64,000 bases of DNA from Sulfuriroseicoccus oceanibius (GTDB taxonomy: Bacteria; Verrucomicrobiota; Verrucomicrobiia; Verrucomicrobiales; SLCJ01), in contig NZ_CP066776.1 of the NCBI RefSeq assembly GCF_010681825.2, positions 2,480,001 to 2,544,000 of the forward strand, in the 5' to 3' direction. The position numbers were made by a program, and so were the translations under genes. The stretch's first letter is position 1; every line of letters starts with the position of its first letter. Shown piece by piece: positions 1 through 10,057 of this stretch. Under the pieces are notes generated by a model, which was not told the DNA's origin, did no database searches, and worked only from the letters and a program-made list of their open reading frames with translations.

Positions 1-1
1 T

Positions 2-508
2 TTCGGGTGTGAATTGGTAAACGCGTTTCGTTGCGCTGAAACACTAGGCGCTGAGTACATCGTCCCCTTTATCGAGAGCACGAGGCGTGAAGGTTTCATT
101 GACGCCCTTTCGGCAATGACAGGAGACGGCAAGCACCCGACCAGCGCGACGATTGAGAAAACGATGGCGGAACTTGCTATTTACTCCCAATTAAGCGACG
201 ACCACGCCGCCGAATGTGATCGCCTATGGCTGAAAGGGAGATCGTTACTCGCTCAAGATAACCTGTCCGCGATGGCACTTGATATGATGCTGGCCGACGA
301 GATCAGGAAGGCGGAGCGGAAGATCAAAAAGCGGAAAGGCGTTGGATTATCCGAGAAACTTAGAACGCTATGGCTTCCCGCCGCACTTTGGGCGATGAGC
401 AAAGAGCGAATTGCGCGGACGATTGCCGGAGGCCATGCGCCGAAGGAGGTCGGGAGAGCGATTCAAACCGACCCCGCGTTACAGCGGAGCCATCGCCCAC
501 GAGCGTAA
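2..508 (+). CDS. hypothetical protein, 5' end outside window
   Basis: The frame is open to the left edge, so this is the C-terminal part of a longer gene. A TTG at 14 could be an internal start, but codons before it are also open. About 168 residues are visible, largely helical, with a basic stretch in the middle (KAERKIKKRKG) and a basic tail. I do not recognise a domain. It is followed at once by a strong terminator, so it closes a transcription unit that begins outside the window, where an integrase could also lie. Function unknown; it may belong to the integration module of the mobile element. Confidence 0.5.
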   Translation, partial: FGCELVNAFRCAETLGAEYIVPFIESTRREGFIDALSAMTGDGKHPTSATIEKTMAELAIYSQLSDDHAAECDRLWLKGRSLLAQDNLSAMALDMMLADEIRKAERKIKKRKGVGLSEKLRTLWLPAALWAMSKERIARTIAGGHAPKEVGRAIQTDPALQRSHRPRA

Positions 509-534
509 GCGCACCCTATGCGCCGCAAATTGAG

Positions 535-565
535 CACCCGTGATTTTTGTCGCGGGTGTTTTTTT
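535..565 (+). terminator. rho-independent terminator
   Basis: CACCCG (535-540) pairs with CGGGTG (553-558), and a run of seven T follows. It ends the transcription unit of the gene stopping at 508. Confidence 0.75.
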
Positions 566-611
566 GTGATTTTCTCCCCTTGTTTTTACGTTCGCGAAAC
601 GTGGTGCACGC

Positions 612-635
612 TTGGCGAATAACGGTTTTCGCCAA
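612..635. promoter_or_regulatory. inverted repeat, candidate operator
   Basis: TTGGCGAA (612-619) is repeated inverted as TTCGCCAA (628-635) with an 8-base spacer, 20 bases ahead of the HTH gene at 655. A second palindrome, TTCGCGAA, lies just upstream at 591-598. Between a terminator and a regulator gene, this is a natural operator, possibly autoregulatory. No binding data; position and symmetry only. Confidence 0.4.
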
Positions 636-654
636 ACTTGGACATGGTCGGGGC

Positions 655-891
655 ATGAAAGTAAACGCATCCACCACCACCCCGACCGAACGCCCTACCC
701 CATCCGTCGCACTCGCGCCCAACGAGTTGATTGATACCGCAGAACTCGCACGCCGCTTGAAGGTAACACGACGGAGTATCGACAACTACCGAGCCCAGGG
801 GCGCATTCCCGCAATCAAGATCGGGCAATGCGTAAGGTTCAATTGGCTTCGAGTGATCGAGGCACTGGAAGGCATTAGCGAGAGCAAATAG
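655..891 (+). CDS. small HTH DNA-binding protein (excisionase/AlpA-like)
   Basis: A 78-residue protein. Residues about 26-70 form a MerR/HTH_17-type winged helix of the kind found in excisionases and AlpA-like activators: an ELARRLKVTRRSIDNYRAQGRIPAIKIG core followed in this family by a short wing. The first 25 residues are Pro/Thr rich and probably disordered. The ATG at 655 is chosen because the domain starts soon after and the inverted repeat lies just upstream; an earlier in-frame ATG at 547 would run through the terminator and operator. It heads the element's left gene block and probably controls excision or transcription. Family is clear, exact role inferred. Confidence 0.7.
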   Translation: MKVNASTTTPTERPTPSVALAPNELIDTAELARRLKVTRRSIDNYRAQGRIPAIKIGQCVRFNWLRVIEALEGISESK

Positions 892-934
892 CAGGAGGCC
901 GAACCCGATCACAGAATCCAAACCGCCCGAAGAT

Positions 935-1369
935 ATGAGCCAGCTAACAGACGGCCAGATCGCACGAGTTGCCAAATACACAGGCATCGAACCCGACGCA
1001 CTCCGCCGACTCGCTCCCCAGATGCTCACCGCAGCAGACCCACAGACCGCGCCACGAGAGCGCGTGAACGTGCCGGTAAATCTTGGCAGCAAATTGTCCG
1101 AGCGACTTCACCGCGAAGCGGAGCGGCAACACATGAGCGTTAATCGCGTGATTGAGATGCTTTTGGCTTATGCGCTCAACAAAGTGGAAACCGGCCAAGC
1201 TGGAATCGCCGCGCCGATCACAATCGAGATCGACGACGAGACGGCCGCCAACCTGGCATCGCGAGCGAAAGCAGCCGGACGCACAACCGGCGAGCAGCTA
1301 AAGGCCGAGGCACTCACGCACGCCGCGACCGCCGGACGCGTACCAGCGCAGTCGAGCGACGGGAAATAA
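935..1369 (+). CDS. protein with two ribbon-helix-helix-like segments
   Basis: A 144-residue protein of unknown family. Two stretches look like ribbon-helix-helix DNA-binding folds: about residues 49-87 (VNVPVNLGSKLSERLHREAE, then a helix with MSVNRVIEMLLAYAL) and about 96-131 (ITIEIDDETAANLASRAKAA, then TTGEQLKAEAL). Each has the beta strand, helix, turn, helix order. RHH proteins normally dimerise to bind DNA, and two in one chain could act as a built-in dimer. It lies between two HTH genes ahead of the replication genes, so a repressor or copy-control role is plausible. Domain calls are by eye. Confidence 0.6.
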   Translation: MSQLTDGQIARVAKYTGIEPDALRRLAPQMLTAADPQTAPRERVNVPVNLGSKLSERLHREAERQHMSVNRVIEMLLAYALNKVETGQAGIAAPITIEIDDETAANLASRAKAAGRTTGEQLKAEALTHAATAGRVPAQSSDGK

Positions 1370-1433
1370 CAGGCGGATCGTTCCTAGAAGGTGACCCAAA
1401 CTCCCCGAGCAGGGTGACAACTCTCGTAAGGAT

Positions 1434-1610
1434 ATGAAACAAGAAATCCTGACCCGACCAGAACTTGCCGCCCGTCTCCGAGTGTCCACCAAAACGGTCA
1501 CGGAATGGACTATCAAAGGCCTGATCCCGTGCCTGAAGGCCGACCGCGCCACGCGCTACGATTGGCGCGAAGTGCAGGACGCACTCAGCACCCGCAACAA
1601 GGCGAAATAA
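1434..1610 (+). CDS. small HTH protein (AlpA/excisionase-like), 58 aa
   Basis: ATG at 1434 preceded by GTAAGGAT, a good ribosome binding site, and closed by TAA at 1608-1610. The 58-residue product begins MKQEILTRPELAARLRVS and has the pattern of the HTH_17/MerR-like domain: first helix, RVSTKTVTEW recognition region, GLIP turn, then a basic strand and RYDWREVQDAL. It resembles the protein encoded at 655-891, so the element carries two related small DNA-binding proteins. It precedes the helicase gene by about 120 bases and could be its activator or a recombination directionality factor. Confidence 0.65.
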   Translation: MKQEILTRPELAARLRVSTKTVTEWTIKGLIPCLKADRATRYDWREVQDALSTRNKAK

Positions 1611-1734
1611 CCCCGAGCACAAAAAAAAGCCGCTGCCCGGGGACGACGGACAACGACCTAAAAGAGAAGTCTTGGCGGCTTCAATCTAGGCGAGATGTCA
1701 CCCGCGAGGCAAGGGGCAAAATTCAATCCCTTCC

Positions 1735-3219
1735 ATGCAACAACACCAATATCAACTTGATAGGCAGCTTGAGCCACTAGAGCCACGCAGCCCAGACCTC
1801 GCCGCAATTATTGAGGGCGCGGGAAAAGCCAAGCATTACAGCACTGCCGAAGATGCAATCAGCCAACTTATCAAAGACGCTGAATTCGCAGACTTCTGCG
1901 AACTGGCGCTTGAATACATCGGTCACAAGCTTCTGAACGCGGAAGGCAAGGTTCGGAAGCCGACAGCGAAAGAGGCCGCCGTCATCATTGCCGAACATTT
2001 CAAGAAACACGCCGAGCACGCCGCTGGAGGCCTAGCGCGGATCAATGGATCCGTGCACTACTTCACCGGCAAACATTGGCAACCACTGGAGGCTGAATGC
2101 TTGGAATCATCGCTCGGCCAATTCGCTGAGGCTATCGGGCATTGCGTTACCGACTCCAGGTATTACGAATCGCGCCGGAAGCTTGCAGAGCAGCTCCGCA
2201 CCGTGACCCCGCAGCTACAGCCAACCGGCGGATCAATGGTCAATTTCTCCAACGGCACGCTTGAGCTAAAGCGAGATCGCGAGGTTATGACCAGCCACAG
2301 CAAAGCGCACGGATTTACCTACGTTTTGCCGTTCAACTACTCACCGGATGCGGATTGCCCGATCTTCAAGCGCTACCTTGATCGAGCGTTGCCAGATGCG
2401 GAAAGCCAGCAACTTGTGAGCGAGTTTTTCGGGTGGATCTTCCTACGAGATTTGAAGCTTGAGAAGATGCTTGTTCTGCTAGGACACGGTCACAACGGGA
2501 AGTCCGTCTTGTTTGATATTATGTCCGCAATGCTTGGAGCTGATAACATTTCAAACATCAGCTTCGATTCGCTCAAGAAACCAGAGAGCCGGTTGCCGAT
2601 GCTTGGCAAGCTTCTCAACTACGGATCCGAGATTGCGGGAAGCGTGCCGCCCGATACGCTAAAAAAAGCATCATCAGGCGAGCCGCTGGAATTCCGCCGG
2701 TTATACCAAGACCTTGTGACCAGCAAGGACTACGCTCGACTCGCGTTCAATGCGAACAATCTGCCGAGCCTCACAGAGCAAACGGAAGGCTTTTTCCGCC
2801 GCTTCCTGATTGTTCCATTTGAGCAGACGATCACGCCCGAAGAGCGAGATCCTGACCTTGCCCGCAAGATCATCGAATCTGAATTGCCTGGCGTGATGAA
2901 TTGGGTTCTCAGCGGTATGCGACGAGTCCGCGAGCGGAAAGGATTCAGCCCGTGCGCCAAGTCTGACGAGTGCTTGCGCCGCTACAAGCTGGAGTCCGAC
3001 AGCGTTGCGCTATTTCTGGACGATGAAGGACTCGCGCCATCAGCCAGCGAGCAGGTGCTGAAAGGCGAGCTTTATCAGGAGTATCGGAACTATTGCGCCG
3101 ACAACGGTTATCGAGCGTGCGGGAAGCGAGAGTTCGGAGCCCGTTTGACGAAGCAGCACCGGATCTTCGAGCATCGCACCAGCACCGGCCGCTATTGGCT
3201 GATCGAGAAGAGCGCCTGA
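1735..3219 (+). CDS. phage/plasmid P4-type SF3 helicase (D5 family)
   Basis: A 494-residue replication protein. The middle holds an SF3/D5 helicase: Walker A GHGHNGKS at about residues 250-257, an acidic Walker B-like LLNYGSEIAG near 300, sensor-like LAFNANNLP near 345 and an arginine-finger segment FFRRFLIVPF near 360. The C-terminal 100 residues form the winged-helix tail typical of phage/plasmid P4 primases (LYQEYRNYCADNGY, FGARL). The N-terminus has no primase active site that I can see; a separate primase is encoded next door at 3288. Such proteins unwind the origin of satellites and plasmids. Its stop codon abuts an iteron cluster. Confidence 0.85.
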   Translation: MQQHQYQLDRQLEPLEPRSPDLAAIIEGAGKAKHYSTAEDAISQLIKDAEFADFCELALEYIGHKLLNAEGKVRKPTAKEAAVIIAEHFKKHAEHAAGGLARINGSVHYFTGKHWQPLEAECLESSLGQFAEAIGHCVTDSRYYESRRKLAEQLRTVTPQLQPTGGSMVNFSNGTLELKRDREVMTSHSKAHGFTYVLPFNYSPDADCPIFKRYLDRALPDAESQQLVSEFFGWIFLRDLKLEKMLVLLGHGHNGKSVLFDIMSAMLGADNISNISFDSLKKPESRLPMLGKLLNYGSEIAGSVPPDTLKKASSGEPLEFRRLYQDLVTSKDYARLAFNANNLPSLTEQTEGFFRRFLIVPFEQTITPEERDPDLARKIIESELPGVMNWVLSGMRRVRERKGFSPCAKSDECLRRYKLESDSVALFLDDEGLAPSASEQVLKGELYQEYRNYCADNGYRACGKREFGARLTKQHRIFEHRTSTGRYWLIEKSA

Positions 3220-3220
3220 G

Positions 3221-3274
3221 AAATGACGCAAATGACAGAAATGACGGCTCAAACAATCGGAACAAAATTCTTCC
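3221..3274. repeat. iteron cluster, left arm of inverted repeat
   Basis: Three direct 9-base units, AAATGACGC, AAATGACAG and AAATGACGG, fill 3221-3247, starting one base after the helicase stop. After 11 unrelated bases comes GGAACAAAATTCTTCC (3259-3274). The whole arrangement recurs inverted at 4262-4314 with the same 11-base gap. Clustered iterons beside replication genes suggest an origin or copy-control site. Confidence 0.7.
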
Positions 3275-3287
3275 CCCCTTCCTTAAA

Positions 3288-4259
3288 ATGAACTCCCCAA
3301 CTTTTCCTGAGACATGCGCCCTTGATCCTAACCGGCTCGAAGCGCTTCGCATAGTTGCTGGTAAGGTTATCGCACAATGCCCACAATGCGCCGCTGGAGG
3401 GCGCGACACCGCGAAGGATAATCTAGCCATCTTTGAAAGCGGAGCGTTCTATTGCATCACAGGATGCGACGCTAAGGCGATTCACTCGCTAGCAGGCAGA
3501 GAATCGGACTGGAAGCCCGACCCTGACGAGAAGCGCCGCTGGCAGAAGGAACAAGCGCAGCGACGAAGGCAGGAGGCCGAGCAGGAGGCACGCGCCAAGG
3601 CAGCGCAGGAATACCGCCGCCCGTTGATTGATCGCCACCGATGGACAAGCGGGGAAATCCTGGCAGATAGCCCCGTGAGGCTCGACCGGCCAATGCTGAA
3701 GAATTACCCTGACCGTGCAATGCTCGCCGCGTTATTCGCCCCTGACGCTCTGCTATGGACTGGCGAAGTTTACGAGTCGGGAACCGCTCACGCCGCCCGA
3801 TGGCAGAAGACCAGCGGCCACCATTCAACCGCGCATCGGTGCGGATCCATGACCACGCCCGCAACGTGGAAGGAGGGCACAACAAGCCGCACAAGGGACA
3901 ACGTCGCAACATCGCCATACACCGTGCTGGACTTCGACGGCTTTGACGGAACCGCACCAACCACCCCCGACGAACTTCGAGCACATCTAGCAGACTCCGC
4001 CGCAATCATCCGATGGATGCGCGAAGACTTGCACTGGAGGCTTGCCGCTATTGTCTTTACTGGATCAAAGAGTCTGCACGCTTGGTTTCATACTCCGCCG
4101 CAGCAAGCCATTGCTGACCTTCGCTCAATCGCTCCGCAGCTAGGCATCGACGCCGGACTAGTAGGACACCCTGAGCACCCGTGCAGACTACCAGGACACC
4201 GACACGAGAAGACCGGCAACACGTCAAGACTACTCTGGCTCGACCACGCCGCCCGATGA
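3288..4259 (+). CDS. archaeo-eukaryotic-type primase with zinc finger
   Basis: A 323-residue protein. Residues about 25-55 carry two Cys pairs (CPQC and CITGC), a CHC2-like zinc finger that reads template DNA in primases. A long basic helix follows (residues about 80-110). The second half has the primase-polymerase core: an acidic LDFDGFD motif (DxD), then GSKSLHAW (the sxH-type motif), then CRLPGHRH, a pattern common in AEP/PrimPol primases. ATG at 3288 is chosen because it leads directly into the zinc finger; the frame is open further up through the iterons. It would make primers for the helicase at 1735. Inverted iteron arrays flank it on both sides. Confidence 0.7.
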   Translation: MNSPTFPETCALDPNRLEALRIVAGKVIAQCPQCAAGGRDTAKDNLAIFESGAFYCITGCDAKAIHSLAGRESDWKPDPDEKRRWQKEQAQRRRQEAEQEARAKAAQEYRRPLIDRHRWTSGEILADSPVRLDRPMLKNYPDRAMLAALFAPDALLWTGEVYESGTAHAARWQKTSGHHSTAHRCGSMTTPATWKEGTTSRTRDNVATSPYTVLDFDGFDGTAPTTPDELRAHLADSAAIIRWMREDLHWRLAAIVFTGSKSLHAWFHTPPQQAIADLRSIAPQLGIDAGLVGHPEHPCRLPGHRHEKTGNTSRLLWLDHAAR

Positions 4260-4261
4260 CC

Positions 4262-4314
4262 GGAAGAATTTTGTTCCATCATTTCAGCCCGTCATTTTTG
4301 TCATTTGTGTCATT
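4262..4314. repeat. iteron cluster, right arm of inverted repeat
   Basis: Inverted counterpart of 3221-3274: GGAAGAATTTTGTTCC at 4262-4277, an 11-base gap, then 26 bases (4289-4314) that are the reverse complement of the three ATGAC iterons with two or three changes. The two arms lie just outside the primase stop and start. Confidence 0.7.
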
Positions 4315-4324
4315 AGCTCCGCCG

Positions 4325-4600
4325 ATGAAGCCAAGCCCCCAACAAACACGCGCCGACGACCGGAAGCTCGAACGCATCGAATTCGACATTCAGCAGACCG
4401 CAGCAGAACCCCCAGAATCGCCACCACGAGCCGCAGGACTCGCGACGGGCATCAACCGCCAAGCACTCGAGCGGATCGGGCTGAGCCGATTACTCGCGAC
4501 CACACCGGACGCTTTGAAAGGTTGCACGACTACCAAACCGGAGCCGCCGACCGATGAGCCCGCATTTCATGCATTGCCGATTAGATCGCCGCGACGATGA
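4325..4600 (+). CDS. hypothetical protein, 91 aa
   Basis: ATG at 4325 lies 10 bases after the right iteron cluster. The product is Pro/Thr rich, hydrophilic, with a short ordered stretch in the middle (INRQALERIGLSRLLATTPDAL) that could be a helix-turn-helix-sized unit. No family recognised. Its position directly behind the primase, and the terminator shortly downstream, suggest it is the last gene of the replication block. Composition matches its neighbours. Confidence 0.45.
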   Translation: MKPSPQQTRADDRKLERIEFDIQQTAAEPPESPPRAAGLATGINRQALERIGLSRLLATTPDALKGCTTTKPEPPTDEPAFHALPIRSPRR

Positions 4601-4640
4601 CCACCCAGCGTCGCAGAGGATCCGCAGCCCGATCAATTAG

Positions 4641-4694
4641 TTTCCGTTTACGGAAATCAAAACGCCCGCCGGAGAGATCCGCGCGGGCATTTTC
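4641..4694 (+). terminator. hairpin and rho-independent terminator
   Basis: GCCCGC (4664-4669) pairs with GCGGGC (4683-4688), followed by ATTTTC. Just upstream, TTTCCG-TTTA-CGGAAA (4641-4656) forms a second perfect hairpin. Together they would end the replication transcript; the T run is short, so strength is uncertain. Confidence 0.5.
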
Positions 4695-4914
4695 GTGCAT
4701 GGATCCGGACACGAGAAAGGCGAGCGCGACGCCCCCAGCTCCCCAGCCGATACGCCGCGCCCGCCCCAACAATCGAGAGAATGGGAGGACTCTCACCCCT
4801 GCTCACTTGTCACCGCACATCGCCGGAAGTCCGTGAGGGTGACAAACGGTGCTTCTGTGAAGGCTCCCCACCACACGCGCACGCGGGAGCTCCAATTTTT
4901 AACAGCTCCGCAAT

Positions 4915-5784
4915 ATGGGATTTCTCGACAGATTCAAGCGCCGCCGCTCTAGCAAGACTCTAGCACCCAAGCACGACCAACCGATCAGCATGGCGGAATT
5001 CGACCGCAAGATCGAGGAGATCGAAGAAGCCAAAGCACGCGCAGCAGCACGCGATCAGCAACGCCGCGCCGAGATCACCGACGACTTGCCAATGGCGATG
5101 GCGCCGACCACGCCGATCACCACGAGCGCGACCACCGAGGCCACCGCGACAACAAATCAAGCGATGCCACAAACGGCACGCACTACCCAACCCGAACCAA
5201 GAACCAATATGCCGACATTCGACACTACACCAGGAACCAGCATCCACGCGTTGAAACAACAAGCCGCCGCCGCACAGAAAGCGGTTGCGGATGCCATGGG
5301 GATCAAAGACGCAGCCCAGATCCGTGCCAAGCTGAAGCTTATGCTTGCTAGCGGGAACGTTTACTACCCAGCTTGTGACATTAGCTTTGGATCAGTCTCA
5401 AAGAGGCCATCTAGCACGACTATGTTTCGCGTGGTGGAAATCGTTTCGAGCGTGGACGGTAAAAAATATCGTTACCTTGATACCATTCCCGAGCAATCCG
5501 TTCGCCGCTTGCTGGAGAAAGAAGGCTTGTCCGCCAAGCGCGAGGTCGTCGAGCCCGAGCCGCTGACGCCAGAGGAAGCGCTGAAAGTGATCGAAGGCAA
5601 GGCAGACCCGCAGAAGCCGGTTGAGCAGCCATCGCAAATCGACCTGGCGATTGAAGCCATCAAAAAACGTGAGCTCATCACCCCTCGCACATGGCTTATC
5701 GCGCGCGAATTCAAGCCCGCGTCCGTTGTCCCGCGTGATCTTTACGACGTTGGCCGCAAGACCTTCGAAGAGCTCGAATTCTAG
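4915..5784 (+). CDS. hypothetical element protein with Thr/Pro-rich linker
   Basis: A 289-residue protein of unknown family. It starts with a basic MGFLDRFKRRRSS segment, followed by an acidic/basic charged coiled-coil-like helix (residues 25-55), a Thr/Ala/Pro-rich linker (60-105), an alanine-rich helix and then a globular C-terminal half (about 125-289) with FRVVEIVSSVDGKKYRYLDTI, probably a small beta-rich domain. The short amphipathic basic N-terminus could touch membrane or DNA. It starts the second gene block of the element and is followed by two tightly linked genes. I cannot assign a function. Confidence 0.6.
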   Translation: MGFLDRFKRRRSSKTLAPKHDQPISMAEFDRKIEEIEEAKARAAARDQQRRAEITDDLPMAMAPTTPITTSATTEATATTNQAMPQTARTTQPEPRTNMPTFDTTPGTSIHALKQQAAAAQKAVADAMGIKDAAQIRAKLKLMLASGNVYYPACDISFGSVSKRPSSTTMFRVVEIVSSVDGKKYRYLDTIPEQSVRRLLEKEGLSAKREVVEPEPLTPEEALKVIEGKADPQKPVEQPSQIDLAIEAIKKRELITPRTWLIAREFKPASVVPRDLYDVGRKTFEELEF

Positions 5785-5789
5785 CCGAT

Positions 5790-6002
5790 ATGATCTTCCC
5801 GTACTTAGTAACAGAGGAAACGCTACCGGATCGCGAACCTCGCGTCATTCACATCAGCAACGACCGCCGCGCCGCGATGGACGCTTACGACGACGCATTG
5901 AAGGACGATCCCGAAGCCATCGTCTATTTCTACGAGTTGTCCGCACCGTTGAAACGCCGCAAGCCGTCCGCAATTCTCCAATCCAAATATCAAGAACCAT
6001 GA
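5790..6002 (+). CDS. hypothetical protein, 70 aa
   Basis: Starts five bases after the preceding stop and overlaps the next gene by ATGA (5999-6002), so it is translated in an operon with both. The product is small and acidic in the middle (AMDAYDDALKDDPEAIVYFYEL) with a basic tail. The N-terminal strand and single helix suggest a compact alpha/beta fold. No family recognised. Confidence 0.6.
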   Translation: MIFPYLVTEETLPDREPRVIHISNDRRAAMDAYDDALKDDPEAIVYFYELSAPLKRRKPSAILQSKYQEP

Positions 6003-6400
6003 AACGAATTCCTATTCACGAGCAGCCCGCCCCGATCAAAAACCCGCCGCTGACCGAAGCCGACTTCATCGCGGCCGCCGATGCAGCCCAACAGCACGAA
6101 AGCCCCGTCCGCGTAGCAGCGTGGTCTAACGCCGTACTTCTACGCAATAAGCGAGGGATGTGGCGCGAGATCCCGAAAGGCGATTGGGAGGCGCGTATGC
6201 GCCTGATGGGGATTCCTTCGCAGCGCTTGCAGGTTCCAGCAACCGACAAAACTCCGCAGGAAGCAAGCGAAGCGATTGCAGCCGGAGCCGATGCCTTATC
6301 GGATGATGCGTATCGAAGCGCCACCCAGATCGAATTCGATCGCGTGAAAGCGCTTGGTGTCATTAGCCGCGAAGCCTGGGCGCACATGCCGAAGAGCTAA
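5999..6400 (+). CDS. hypothetical protein, 133 aa
   Basis: ATG at 5999 overlaps the previous stop (ATGA), the typical sign of translational coupling; the frame is open upstream but only as the shadow of 4915-5784. The product is soluble, with a repeated alanine-rich helical character, a WSNAVLLRNKRGMWREIPKGDWEARMRLMG segment read here as strand-turn-helix, and a C-terminal helix. No conserved family recognised. Third gene of the 4915-6400 operon. Confidence 0.6.
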   Translation: MKRIPIHEQPAPIKNPPLTEADFIAAADAAQQHESPVRVAAWSNAVLLRNKRGMWREIPKGDWEARMRLMGIPSQRLQVPATDKTPQEASEAIAAGADALSDDAYRSATQIEFDRVKALGVISREAWAHMPKS

Positions 6401-6539
6401 CGACGATCAAGGCTCAGATTGCCAACGTAAAACCTTCAGCCTGACGGGAAACCGCCGGGCTCGAAGTGGTAAGAGAGCGGTTGTTTTATCCCATATCGTT
6501 AGCTCTCTAGCTTCCGCCGGACGGTTCACCGAGCGAAGC

Positions 6540-6569
6540 CCCGCCGCTGGCAATGGTGTTGGCGGCGGG
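6540..6569. other. strong GC hairpin between gene blocks
   Basis: CCCGCCGC (6540-6547) pairs with GCGGCGGG (6562-6569). It is followed by ATTCATTTCTC, a poor T run, so it may be a weak terminator for the 4915-6400 operon or a structure around the next start. The preceding 140 bases hold no gene; AGAGAGC and GCTCTCT there could also pair over a 30-base loop. Confidence 0.4.
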
Positions 6570-6597
6570 ATTCATTTCTCTAACGCCGCCGAGACAG

Positions 6598-7047
6598 ATG
6601 CCGATCACTGACCCACTCGCACCAGAGATTACCGTGCCGCTCTCATGCGCTGGAGACGTCGCCGTCTTCGATCACCCCATCGAGCACATCGAGCCCGAGC
6701 CCGACCGCGAGCAGATCCAAGCCGACCCTGCCGAAGTGCTTCACGCAATGATTCGCGCAGTTGCGCAGATCGACCTGGACGCAGTCGAAACAATCACACC
6801 CGACGACGTGGTGAAGATTCAGCGCAGATTCATCGCATTGCTTTATGTGGTGAGGCCGGACGTTATTCGAGGCGCGACCGTGCGCGATATTGCTGCCGCG
6901 TTAGGCATTAGCTTTCAGCCATTCCACCGCCACGTTCGCAAAGTCTCAAAGGCGACCGGACTTCACTACAGGACGGAAAAAACAAGTGGCAACTACCGAA
7001 CAGCAGCAACCGCAGCGCATAAGCGCAAACGCGCAGGAAAGCCATAG
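6598..7047 (+). CDS. putative HTH regulatory protein
   Basis: A 149-residue protein. Residues about 60-125 look like a DNA-binding HTH: a helix (VVKIQRRFIALLYVV), then GATVRDIAAALGISFQPFHRHVRKVSK, with the 'IAAALGIS' turn typical of sigma-like and replication-initiator-like HTHs. The C-terminal tail is basic (HKRKRAGKP). ATG at 6598 is preferred over an in-frame ATG at 6553 because the latter sits in the loop of a strong hairpin. It lies upstream of the possible small terminase gene, so it could be a late-gene activator, though nothing shows this directly. Confidence 0.55.
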   Translation: MPITDPLAPEITVPLSCAGDVAVFDHPIEHIEPEPDREQIQADPAEVLHAMIRAVAQIDLDAVETITPDDVVKIQRRFIALLYVVRPDVIRGATVRDIAAALGISFQPFHRHVRKVSKATGLHYRTEKTSGNYRTAATAAHKRKRAGKP

Positions 7048-7378
7048 GAGGCCGTTTAACGCGGTTTTATCAATTCGCGGCACTCTATACCAAAACACAA
7101 TCAAAACGCCATGAGCGACGCGAGAGAGCGCGAGAGAGGGGCAACCCTACCCACCCCCATTGGGACCCCTATAATTTTGAACCTTTCATTCAGGTCGCAC
7201 CGAAGCTCGGTCAAAATTCGTCAATCTGAGATCGCGCTACTGCGGGATTCATAGCAAGCGATTGCTCCCACAGTCCAGCAGCGTCCCGCAATGGTGACAA
7301 CGTGAGCACCAATGAAGGCTCGAATTCCACAGAAAGCACGACGCCACGAAGCGGAACGCGAGCGGGACAAATTCCACT
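7048..7378. other. non-coding stretch before the terminase-like gene
   Basis: About 330 bases without a convincing gene. It contains a purine-rich GCGAGAGAGCGCGAGAGAGG tract, CCCACCCCCATTGGGACCCC, and an AT-rich TATAATTTTGA box near 7170 that could be a -10 region. In satellites and phages the packaging site often lies beside the small terminase gene; whether one is here cannot be told from sequence alone. Confidence 0.35.
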
Positions 7379-8005
7379 ATGAAGCAATCACTCGACACAA
7401 TCGCGGAACGCCTATGCGCCGCCTATGGATTGGAGCAAGGCACTATCGCCAAGAGCACAATCCACCGCTGGAAACAACGGCAGTATCCGATCACGCAACC
7501 CGCAGCCCTTCTAATCATCCTGGGCAACCTACAGCGCCAGCCAGAGTGGTTTGAACAAGCCAAGCGCCACCTTCACGCGACCGCAGCGGAGGCAGGATCA
7601 CCGACCACCCCGCCGCAGGACATCGCCGACGCTATCAATGCGCAACTGGAGAAGCTTCACGCCGAGATGAGCGATGCCACCGACTACGCCACCGCGCGGA
7701 CGCTGAAGACCAAGACGAGCGCAGCCTATGATTTGTTGAGGCTATCCCGTGCGATGGGTGAGCTAGTGAGCGTTGAGAAAGCTCACGACGCTGGCTTCAG
7801 GATGGGAACAATGGTGAAAGCGATGCTTAACCGAATGGTGGACACGTTGCCGCCAATGCTCGCCGGTCTGGACGAGGTGGGAATTGTGAAGGTGCTCAGG
7901 CCGTACTTGGATCAAACGTTGCGCGAGTTCCACGAGGCCACCGCGAGAGAGCTCGAAGCATTGAAAGACGAGGCTGAAATTGAAGGCGAAAGGGGCGCCA
8001 AATGA
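7379..8005 (+). CDS. putative small terminase subunit-like protein
   Basis: A 208-residue protein. The N-terminus (residues 1-65) looks like a small HTH (TIAERLCAAYGL, then STIHRWKQRQYPITQPAALLIIL), followed by a helical region (75-130) and a C-terminal segment with MLNRMVDTLPPMLAGLDEVG and VLRPYLDQTLREF. That order, an N-terminal HTH, a central coiled coil and a C-terminal 'lP..la..d...v...L' helix pair, is what Nu1-like small terminase subunits show. In phage satellites a private small terminase redirects packaging. I am not sure of the family; a replication-linked DNA-binding protein is the alternative. Confidence 0.45.
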   Translation: MKQSLDTIAERLCAAYGLEQGTIAKSTIHRWKQRQYPITQPAALLIILGNLQRQPEWFEQAKRHLHATAAEAGSPTTPPQDIADAINAQLEKLHAEMSDATDYATARTLKTKTSAAYDLLRLSRAMGELVSVEKAHDAGFRMGTMVKAMLNRMVDTLPPMLAGLDEVGIVKVLRPYLDQTLREFHEATARELEALKDEAEIEGERGAK

Positions 8006-8253
8006 TGAAGCGAGATAACAAGAATCTATTCGCGCGGGCTGTCGTTCGCGGGATGCAGGATCCTGAGCCGGAGACAATCGAGAAGGCCGCCAAGCTCGCG
8101 CTGAGCAAGCTCAGGATCTATGACCTGATCCACGACCAGGAAGCCGAAATGCGCCGCGTGGCTGAAATCTACCGAGACGCGTTCGTAAAGGTGCTGGCTG
8201 AGCTCGAAGAAGATTGGATCCGTGAGGATAAGGAGAAAGGACTTCATGAGTAA
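8002..8253 (+). CDS. hypothetical protein, 83 aa
   Basis: Overlaps the preceding stop (ATGATGA) and is itself overlapped by the next start. The product is all-helical and charged: a basic N-terminus, a central amphipathic helix (ETIEKAAKLALSKLRIYDLI) and a second long helix ending EEDWIREDKEKG. It could be a small oligomeric helical protein. Family unknown. First of three tiny coupled genes after the terminase-like gene. Confidence 0.55.
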   Translation: MMKRDNKNLFARAVVRGMQDPEPETIEKAAKLALSKLRIYDLIHDQEAEMRRVAEIYRDAFVKVLAELEEDWIREDKEKGLHE

Positions 8254-8398
8254 GCACAAGCCCGGAAAGAAAGCACGCAGGAAGGCGAGAGAGGCCGAGA
8301 GACTGCAAGCCATGGCGATGAGTTACACCACCGCCGCCGGAAGCATTGACGCGTTGCTAGACGCCATTGCGCAGCCTCAGCCACACCACGACCGATGA
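8246..8398 (+). CDS. hypothetical protein, 50 aa, very basic N-terminus
   Basis: ATG at 8246 overlaps the upstream stop at 8251-8253, with AGGAGAAAGGA as an excellent ribosome binding site, and its TGA at 8396-8398 overlaps the next ATG. The product starts MSKHKPGKKARRKAREAERL, a strongly basic helix that may bind nucleic acid, followed by a short helix (SIDALLDAIAQ). Its start signals and coupling support a real gene despite its size. Confidence 0.55.
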   Translation: MSKHKPGKKARRKAREAERLQAMAMSYTTAAGSIDALLDAIAQPQPHHDR

Positions 8399-8598
8399 AA
8401 GATCCGTTCAAGTGGATTGCCCGACTGTTCGCGACACCGCCGCAACATCACACCGCGCCGGACGCCGCCAACCTGCCGGACGGGATCAGCTATGATGCAC
8501 GCCGCCGACGTTATCGCGTGCAGCTCGACCACGGCACAGAGCACCGAATCACGCTAGCGGACGCGATGACAGCGAGACGCGAGACGATAGACGGTTGA
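8395..8598 (+). CDS. hypothetical protein, 67 aa
   Basis: Coupled to the gene before it by ATGA at 8395. The N-terminus MKDPFKWIARLFATPP could be a short amphipathic membrane-binding helix. The second half (DGISYDARRRRYRVQLDHGTEHRITLADAM) reads like three beta strands and a helix, similar in pattern to small AP2/Arm-type DNA-binding folds of integrases, but this is a weak resemblance. Last gene of the element before its right end. Confidence 0.5.
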   Translation: MKDPFKWIARLFATPPQHHTAPDAANLPDGISYDARRRRYRVQLDHGTEHRITLADAMTARRETIDG

Positions 8599-8717
8599 GC
8601 GTGGATCCGCACCGACGATCACACCGACGACGCGACAGGAGCACCGGCACGCGACACGGTGAGCACCGACGACGACGCGGCACACCGATCACACCGGCAC
8701 ACGCGGCACGACCACGA

Positions 8718-8756
8718 CCGGCGGAGATGACCGGCGGAGATGACCGGCGGAGATGA
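8718..8756. repeat. three tandem 13-base repeats
   Basis: CCGGCGGAGATGA occurs three times without change (8718-8730, 8731-8743, 8744-8756), inside a gene-free stretch (8599-8935) that is also rich in ACCG-type words. Further right, ATCTACTC occurs twice (8866-8873, 8877-8884) and once inverted as part of GAGTAGA (8755-8761). Near the end of an element at a tRNA gene, these could be recombinase arm sites. Confidence 0.5.
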
Positions 8757-8935
8757 GTAGAATTCGAGCAGACTGTACCAAGCCGACGACGTAGCCGGAG
8801 TGGATCCGATGTGGAGAGATCCGCGCCGAAACGATCCCGAAATGCTCGAAAACCGCCCCAAAAAAATCTACTCAGAATCTACTCGAAGGCGTGCGAAATG
8901 ACGCGCAAACCCTGATAACTCCGTTACAGGCGAAA

Positions 8936-8976
8936 AAAGAAGCGACCCCCATTTTCAGGGAGTCGCTTTCTTTGTA
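8936..8976 (-). terminator. terminator of the tRNA-Ser gene
   Basis: On the minus strand AAGCGACTCCC and GGGGGTCGCTT form a stem with a GAAAAT-type loop, followed by CTTTTTTC. It lies 17 bases past the 3' end of the tRNA gene and would end its transcript; the plus strand also has a short T-rich tail, so it may work both ways. Confidence 0.7.
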
Positions 8977-8992
8977 ACTCATTCAAAATGAA

Positions 8993-9080
8993 TGGCGGAG
9001 AGGGTGGGATTCGAACCCACGGAGACTTTCGCCTCGGCGGTTTTCAAGACCGCTGCATTCGACCACTCTGCCACCTCTCC
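8993..9080 (-). tRNA. tRNA-Ser(UGA)
   Basis: Read on the minus strand, the acceptor GGAGAGG pairs exactly with CCTCTCC, the anticodon loop is CTTGAAA with anticodon TGA (9044-9046 on the plus strand), the variable arm is long as in class II tRNAs, and GGTTCGAATCC is the T arm. Discriminator G and an encoded CCA (8993-8995) complete the 88-base gene. Its 3' end faces the mobile element, the usual geometry for integration into a tRNA gene. Confidence 0.95.
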
Positions 9081-9129
9081 GCTTTGTCGGCGAACCGACG
9101 AAATCTTTTGCAGTGGCGCGAGTCTGTTT

Positions 9130-9585
9130 TTAGGAAACAGGCTCGAGGTCTGGATTGCTGTCCTCCACTGTATGACCAATGGCAGCGAGTGCAACCAAAA
9201 CTGCGTTAATTGCGATGGCAACACCGGACCCGAGGAAGCCTGAGACAACTACCACTTCTTTAGTCTTGTCGTTAACCAGTTCAGGGTTAGTCCACAGCGC
9301 ATCAGGGAAGATAGCGACCAAGACGTTGAGCGTCCCTGTAAAAAATGCGAATGCACCGACCATCATCCACAGATAGTTGGCGGCGATGCCACTGCGACCT
9401 GTGGCTACCAAGCTGATGAGCTGGAAGAACAAAACGGCTCCGAAAGCGACGATAGCGCCGCCGTAGATCTTCTGCCAGAAGCCTTCCTGGAACAAATTGC
9501 CCCCGGCGGCCAGAACGTTAAGCATTACGACGAACAACGCCCCGATGGCGAAGACACGACTAAAAGCGGTGGATGGTGCGGACAT
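9130..9585 (-). CDS. small four-helix membrane protein, unknown function
   Basis: A 151-residue protein with four hydrophobic segments (about residues 13-33, 45-65, 78-100 and 117-142 from the ATG at 9585), short loops and an acidic C-terminus ([11 protein letters not shown]). This start is preferred because the membrane part follows it directly; an upstream extension in the same frame would be a hydrophilic, unlikely 46 residues. I do not recognise the family. It stands alone between the tRNA gene and a repeat-filled spacer. Confidence 0.6.
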
Positions 9586-9753
9586 GGCATGAGCATTAGC
9601 CGACTCATGGCCACTGCGCAACTGGAAAGCGCAATCAGATGCATCGGCCGGATTCCCACTCACAATCAACGAATCCGCCTGTAATAGACGGGTGAAAGCA
9701 TCCCACCTTCTCTGCTGGAGCATCCATCGAGGATAGAGGAAGCGATCGAGAAA

Positions 9754-9844
9754 TGGACGGAGCCCAACGCTTCAACGGCAAGAGTGCCGTTGCTCCAGCG
9801 GGGGATGGTGGTCGCACGGGGTGCGATGGAGCGACCACCCTCCT
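9754..9844. repeat. dispersed intergenic repeat, copy 1
   Basis: A 91-base block starting TGGACGGAGCCCAACG and ending GACCACCCTCCT that recurs at 10166-10256 with about seven changes. It includes AACGGCA-AGAG-TGCCGTT, a hairpin. Both copies are followed by a second shared block (GTCCCTCCAGCGCTGCGCAT) and then the AATCATG...GTCTAAA motif. The spacer 9586-10465 holds these repeats and no gene I can support. Confidence 0.75.
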
Positions 9845-10057
9845 GAATTCGAAGGGGATGGCGACCTCGACAATAAGCCTGCCCTCCCTCAAAACATCTC
9901 CGATCCAGGAATCTGCGGCAACCGCTTGGCTCACGCCCTCGCCTCATACTCTCTACGGGCTCTTTGCCCTGAATGATGGCCTGAATCCTGCAGGACAGCG
10001 CCCTCCCTCATGACGGCAGGAATGCCGTCCCTCCAGCGCTGCGCATGCCTTGGACGG

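Follow-up and report, generated by a model that had tools for sequence, protein, structure and literature searches.

The two mirrored sets of AATGAC repeats that enclose a primase gene in Sulfuriroseicoccus oceanibius are probably (at about 60%, in our estimate) the replication origin of an integrated element's SF3/D5 helicase, split by the primase gene or inversely duplicated around it. The replicon appears to be of a known kind, PICI-like with a helicase and iterons; what seems to be new is the layout enclosing the primase gene, a single case so far. The window, i.e. the whole stretch of 64,000 nucleotides that was analysed, is G000:C1:2480001-2544000 of a single-contig genome of 3.5 Mb. The element spans ~10.8 kb, is integrated at tRNA-Ser and, judging by its genes, appears to be a satellite-like, PICI-like replicon of the helicase-iteron kind. 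Its genes, identified by homology, and its sites are as follows, in window coordinates unless stated otherwise.

G000:C1:2478191-2478220, outside the window and left of the integrase: candidate attL, matching the tRNA-Ser 3' end exactly over 30 nt
L090 14516-15703, just left of the window: tyrosine integrase (Phage_integrase 6.6e-09; phrog_1 1.1e-28)
622..891, + strand: excisionase-like HTH gene, xis (HTH_17 7.8e-08; phrog_7735 excisionase 3e-09)
935..1369, + strand: ribbon-helix-helix (RHH) protein gene (RHH_1 3.1e-05)
1735..3219, + strand: SF3 (D5-type) replicative helicase / initiator gene (DUF5906 4.2e-13; D5_N 6.7e-11; Pox_D5 1.4e-05 at residues 420-473)
3222..3247, + strand: left iteron arm, three AATGAC at period 9 (inverted-repeat and pattern searches)
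3259..3274, + strand: left 16-base box, separated from the left iterons by 11 nt (same searches)
3288..4259, + strand: AEP-type primase gene, with a cysteine-rich N part and a catalytic domain at about residues 135-323 (structure model, fold matches)
4262..4277, - strand: right 16-base box, an exact inverted copy (inverted-repeat and pattern searches)
4289..4314, - strand: right iteron arm, three AATGAC at period 9, inverted (same searches)
7379..8005, + strand: terminase small subunit-like gene, TerS-like (phrog_57 4.3e-09)
8982..9011, no strand: candidate attR at the tRNA-Ser 3' end, matched exactly over 30 nt by the attL candidate
8993-9080, - strand: tRNA-Ser, the element's insertion site

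The D5_N, DUF5906 and C-terminal Pox_D5 matches of the helicase all exceed the gathering score, and a PDB profile match was obtained to 7ola (1.3e-16). The helicase structure model was unusable (mean pLDDT 37.5), and its DNA-binding domain is therefore assigned from the Pox_D5 Pfam match. A phage-family scan of 10 element ORFs returned the xis-like and terS-like matches, with three more ORFs having no match. A second tRNA-Ser-like remnant of 66 nt (89%) lies between the attL candidate and the integrase (L090 14352-14417, G000:C1:2478352-2478417), and near the element's right end (window 8716-8756) a 13-nt unit, GACCGGCGGAGAT, occurs in 3.2 mismatch-free repeats.

The left arm (3222-3274) and the right arm (4262-4314) are inverted repeats identical at 42 of 53 positions, compared with a maximum of 29 across 300 shuffles. 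The mirrored iteron clusters and 16-base boxes around the primase gene, with equal 11-base gaps, that a sequence-only reading had described are thus present; its iterons are also real, but the unit it gave, ATGAC, is to be corrected to AATGAC at period 9. Two inverted pairs make up the arms, 3222-3247 / 4289-4314 (26 nt, 92% complementary) and 3259-3274 / 4262-4277 (16 nt, 100% complementary). Between the two arms the box is identical at 16/16 positions and the iteron cores at 18/18, with equal spacing; the 11-nt spacers that separate iterons from box are the same length on both sides and match at only 2/11 positions. Similarity ends at the arm edges, with 7/30 nt matching outside the arms and 6/30 inside. 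Such retention of iterons, box and spacing next to a diverged spacer would be expected of sites under selection for protein binding. When the triple AATGAC-N3 was searched with up to three mismatches, the two arms were the only matches in 64 kb (0.04 expected), and 0/100 shuffles reached two matches. The box, likewise with up to three mismatches, gave only its two arm copies in 64 kb and is the weaker signal alone (9/100 shuffles reach two); at up to two mismatches in the 3.5 Mb genome it has three sites, namely the two exact arm copies and one site with two mismatches.

The iteron arms are 1041 bp apart, with the primase gene enclosed. The left set had been placed right before the primase, and the left box is indeed 13 nt from the primase ATG (3288), but the left arm starts 2 nt past the helicase stop codon (3219), so that it could equally be described as following the helicase. 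The right arm is followed after 10 nt by the next ATG (4325). AT-rich 40-mers are present in both arms (0.65 and 0.675, the top 0.37% and 0.07% of window 1-8990), the right arm containing one of the two most AT-rich 40-mers in that range. Predicted folding of the 40-nt stretches around the boxes does not surpass that of shuffles (z 0.81 and -0.17), and folding of the left arm with its box was not above shuffles; a hairpin of the ssi type at the boxes, a candidate prompted by the RepB' fold of the primase, was rejected on the first of these results. The arms might instead act in RNA, the two ends of the primase message pairing into a long stem that controls translation or stability. A predicted fold does pair the arms across the whole gene, at a length for which there was no shuffled control, and the two mismatches in the iteron arms would still allow G-U pairing. 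We consider this very unlikely, as the 11-nt middle has diverged while keeping equal length, iterons in tandem whose cores are conserved suggest a protein that binds the DNA, and Rfam at gathering score returned nothing besides tRNA in 1-10000.

A Pfam search of the primase gave no match on its own. Its structure model (pLDDT 89.7) matches the fold of RepB', PriS and PrimPol at Z about 8-11; in VIA-align RepB' (3h20) scored Z 11.4 with an rmsd of 3.2 Å over 144 aligned residues, tied with other primases at Z 10-11. By Foldseek alone the match was weak, with one PDB entry at E <= 0.001 (LigD polymerase domain). Conserved residues include D215-x-D217 and S262-L-H264, which we take to be the AEP DxD and SxH-like motifs. 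By modelled fold and motifs, the protein is assigned to the AEP superfamily. Primase relatives were detected in 46/288 genomes of the order (E <= 0.001) and at 23 loci in genome_contigs, Akkermansiaceae and Verrucomicrobiaceae among them; a search with the single primase as query returned no relative from genome_contigs, viral_contigs, phages or plasmids. The nearest, at 86% identity, is at locus L038 on the same chromosome (G000:C1:3277588-3278541), and one further relative in that chromosome (G000:C1:1797020-1797742) is 27% identical, which suggests several such elements per genome.

The comparison with L038 separates the primase from the repeats. DNA common to the window and L038 consists of the primase gene (window 3303-4253, 85%) and short upstream pieces (918-1008, 1212-1335 and 1591-1755); the helicase beyond its first codons and the helicase-primase gap have no DNA similarity. 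L038 has a helicase of the AAA_25 type and GGAAAC iterons, yet its primase is 86% identical to that of the window, so a link of the repeats to the primase as such is not supported. Shared DNA that coincides almost exactly with the primase gene, together with inverted arms that are perfect over 16 nt and 92% over 26 nt, could be taken as the mark of a cassette able to invert or move, with terminal inverted repeats, and inversion of the gene had been suggested at the outset. This is the least credible of the explanations weighed here: helicase and primase are on the same strand in 25/25 loci having both (28 scanned), L038 has this gene but lacks the arms, no flanking target duplication was seen by eye, and the arms have no further copy in their own genome (iteron triple at up to one mismatch, box exact). 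Nor was a recombinase gene found adjoining the arms, the one integrase lying ~3.5 kb off at the attL candidate.

The layout was then compared across relatives, using a score devised for the present analysis that combines inverted match with tandem repetition. The primase-centred test comprised 25 loci (the window, 17 of the better matches of order genomes and 7 new genome_contigs loci; weaker order-genome matches and L039, L056 and L057 were left out). One-genome pairs among the loci are L045 with L046 and L102 with L104, and L038 is in the window's genome. With a 280-nt segment tested at the primase start and a threshold of <=2/200 shuffles, a mirrored unit was detected at the primase start in 15/24 relatives, 11 of which were judged clear iteron units. 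Among the others, the match in L042 is a palindrome, not an iteron unit (its iteron unit is at -543), L106 is not clearly iterated, and L047 and L100 have irregular arrays. A mirrored unit at the primase end was found in 0/25 loci, and arms across the gene, start against end, in the window alone (1/25); given 75 segment tests, about one false match is expected at this threshold. In a remote primase set of 26 of the 29 weak loci (L130, L135 and L136 left out), flanks were mirrored at <=2/200 in 1/23 upstream, 3/26 downstream and 1/23 across the gene, the last being a simple A/T repeat in L132; there is little beyond chance in this set apart from L112 and L114.

Centring the test on the helicase and the 250 nt 3' of its stop codon revealed a mirrored repeat in 16/24 relatives (<=6/500 shuffles), including L039, which is not clearly iterated. 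Seven of the 24 had no mirrored unit there (L040, L041, L048, L049, L050, L051 and L057), and L054 was marginal (8/500); L053 was excluded because its helicase runs off the contig. The L049 unit overlaps the helicase stop codon. Three loci, L041, L048 and L053, seem to have their mirrored iterons within the helicase gene, in its 5' coding part; these exceed shuffles in L048, do not in L041 (14 vs 13-16) and are placed by eye in L053. The window itself has no compact unit within 250 nt of the helicase stop (412/500 shuffles). In L101 and L102, an SF3 helicase is followed by three iterons at 9-base steps, a gap (17 bases in L101, 13 in L102), three inverted iterons and the primase; the L101 unit is modest (2/200, 6/500), with one of its six iterons imperfect. 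By this resemblance the window arms are the same kind as those of L101 and L102, set 1041 nt apart. The initial view that these are iterons of the origin type is supported both by compact mirrored repeats 3' of the helicase in relatives and by the position of PICI origins (PMC6092414). Of the roles suggested in that view, a two-sided origin is the most probable. The sequence of the repeats is not kept in L038, the locus with the nearest primase, which is the outcome named beforehand as refuting; the mirrored layout goes with the helicase.

With one box 13 nt from the primase start, the right arm 10 nt from ATG 4325 and an RHH gene upstream, the arms could also be operators at which the helicase or the RHH protein controls the primase gene and its downstream neighbour. 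We regard this as improbable. The RHH region is similar in L038 (pieces of 77% and 81% nt identity), where the iterons are different; a search of the + strand at 1300-5000 by simple consensus only gave no sigma-70-like promoter; and mirrored repeats are present 3' of the helicase even when the primase precedes it (L052, L055) or went undetected (L088).

Iteron type goes with helicase type, not with the primase, in the loci compared. The helicases of L054 and L100 are of the L038 type (63%, and for L100 33-39% in three pieces) and their iterons are GGAAAC; the L054 primase is 31% identical, and still the iterons are GGAAAC. As GGAAAC tracks the AAA_25-type helicase across near and distant primases, the iterons follow the helicase. 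L043-like helicases have GTCC-type iterons around a CTAGG/TTAGG core (L042-L046, L053 and L099, the last with TCC, not GTCC). At SF3 loci the iterons are GTCCC in L088, L101 and L102, CGGTAAA in L055 and AATGAC in the window, whose iteron is in none of these four SF3 relatives; iteron sequence therefore varies within SF3, as it does within some other helicase types. Among five SF3 helicases the C-terminal part is 22-50% identical, compared with 53-78% for the core, as expected if the C-terminal part reads differing iterons. In five period-9 units, arm mismatches fall at 1/73 core vs 15/36 spacer positions (cores set by eye). The natural swap, in which the same primase occurs with a different helicase and different iterons, points to the helicase as the iteron reader, and the comparison yields predicted helicase-iteron pairs in apparent Verrucomicrobiales elements. 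At E <= 1e-30 the SF3 helicase was found in 7/387 genomes of the phylum, the window's included, with none apart from itself >32% identical; the nearest helicases in the comparison set are 42-50% identical (L101 45%, L102 44%).

Several known replicons share parts of this arrangement. Phage P4 is one element with two separate origin sites (ori1 and crr), which are not known to be a mirrored pair around a gene, and its alpha protein is a fused primase-helicase; in the window the two genes are separate. The closest likeness is to PICI and SaPI islands. According to PMC6092414, the origin of a PICI adjoins the initiator gene on its 3' side, and two iteron sets on either side of an AT-rich region are always present. 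Like these, the window has iterons directly after an initiator helicase gene, in two sets and of element-specific sequence, and integrase, xis-like and terS-like genes in an island of ~10.8 kb (PMC6092414). The left arm, if it acts as an origin, is immediately 3' of the initiator, and an integrase (Phage_integrase 6.6e-09) with an attachment site (30-nt tRNA-Ser copy) is present; unlike the PICI case, the iteron sets enclose the primase gene over 1041 bp, not a compact AT-rich stretch (PMC6092414). In PMC7581432, Cch2, a D5-type SCCmec helicase, binds through its C-terminal domain three 5-nt iterons downstream of its operon; one iteron set suffices for binding, which is unaffected when inverted repeats are removed, and the partner primase starts at the iteron-region sequence. 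The pattern-2 Cch2 system thus resembles the window in its D5-type helicase, three short direct iterons and partner primase, but differs in having one iteron set as the binding site and a CCPol-MP pair as primase, where the window has an AEP (PMC7581432). ORF904 of pRN1 likewise combines AEP, SF3 helicase and winged-helix, with a putative origin 3' of the replication gene; its domains are in one protein and its origin is a ~100-nt stem-loop, whereas the window genes are separate (PMC4234260). RSF1010 has one initiator site per strand (ssiA, ssiB; PMC4434180), which recalls the inverted boxes, and its RepB' tops the primase fold list (tied); in contrast to ssiA, which forms a hairpin, the window box folds no better than shuffles.

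We propose that the element's own SF3/D5-type initiator helicase binds at the AATGAC repeats. By analogy with Cch2, which binds three iterons through its C-terminal domain, the AATGAC arms are the expected target of the window helicase. An arm comprises three iterons at 9-base steps, the 11-base spacer and the AT-rich 16-base box, and would be an apparently complete half-origin; the helicase would load at each arm with opposite polarity and open the AT-rich stretch next to it, perhaps at the box, and the primase would then prime at the opened stretch. Since each arm has an AT-rich stretch of its own, each could open by itself, and the arms would be two mirrored start sites, used alone or paired through looping. 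PICI-like replicons have, between their two iteron sets, a short stretch at which melting is thought to occur; an element with such sets 1 kb apart would show whether arms are adjacent by necessity, act via looping or are independent starts. A more specific version, which we put forward tentatively, is a bipartite origin of two self-sufficient opposed half-origins with one helicase hexamer each, in which the enclosed primase gene would be opened or looped before any other DNA, so that initiation would be coupled to the dosage or expression of the primase. We found no account of an origin split around a primase gene in the open-licence literature. PICI origins being described as compact, a 1-kb split origin may not work, and the split layout is so far seen in one example and in no relative tested.

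The split may have arisen by the primase moving into the origin or by inverted duplication of one arm. In the helicase-primase gap, whole palindromic units occur as inverted copies in L045 (45/45 nt, 363 apart), L046 (44/44, 408 apart) and L042 (43/45, 97 apart); extra units are present upstream of the helicase gene in L043 and L044, so that there the helicase gene is enclosed by units. Recurrent inverted duplication of this kind could have produced the window layout, and would equally suit a rather doubtful alternative to the split origin, in which a single arm works as the origin, the left one beside the helicase stop being the likeliest, and the right is a decaying or accessory inverted copy, e.g. 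a copy-number or looping site. The left arm is the only one in the usual place. The right arm, on the other hand, is intact in box, cores and spacing, its spacer differing at 9/11 positions, and its AT-rich 40-mer is among the two highest.

In a wider search, the AATGAC triple (up to one mismatch) was present in 11/288 genomes of the order, the window's included, in some cases as longer tandem arrays. Contigs C3, C12, C38 and C78 of genome G015 carry AATGAC repeats at period 9, some of them in longer tandem arrays.
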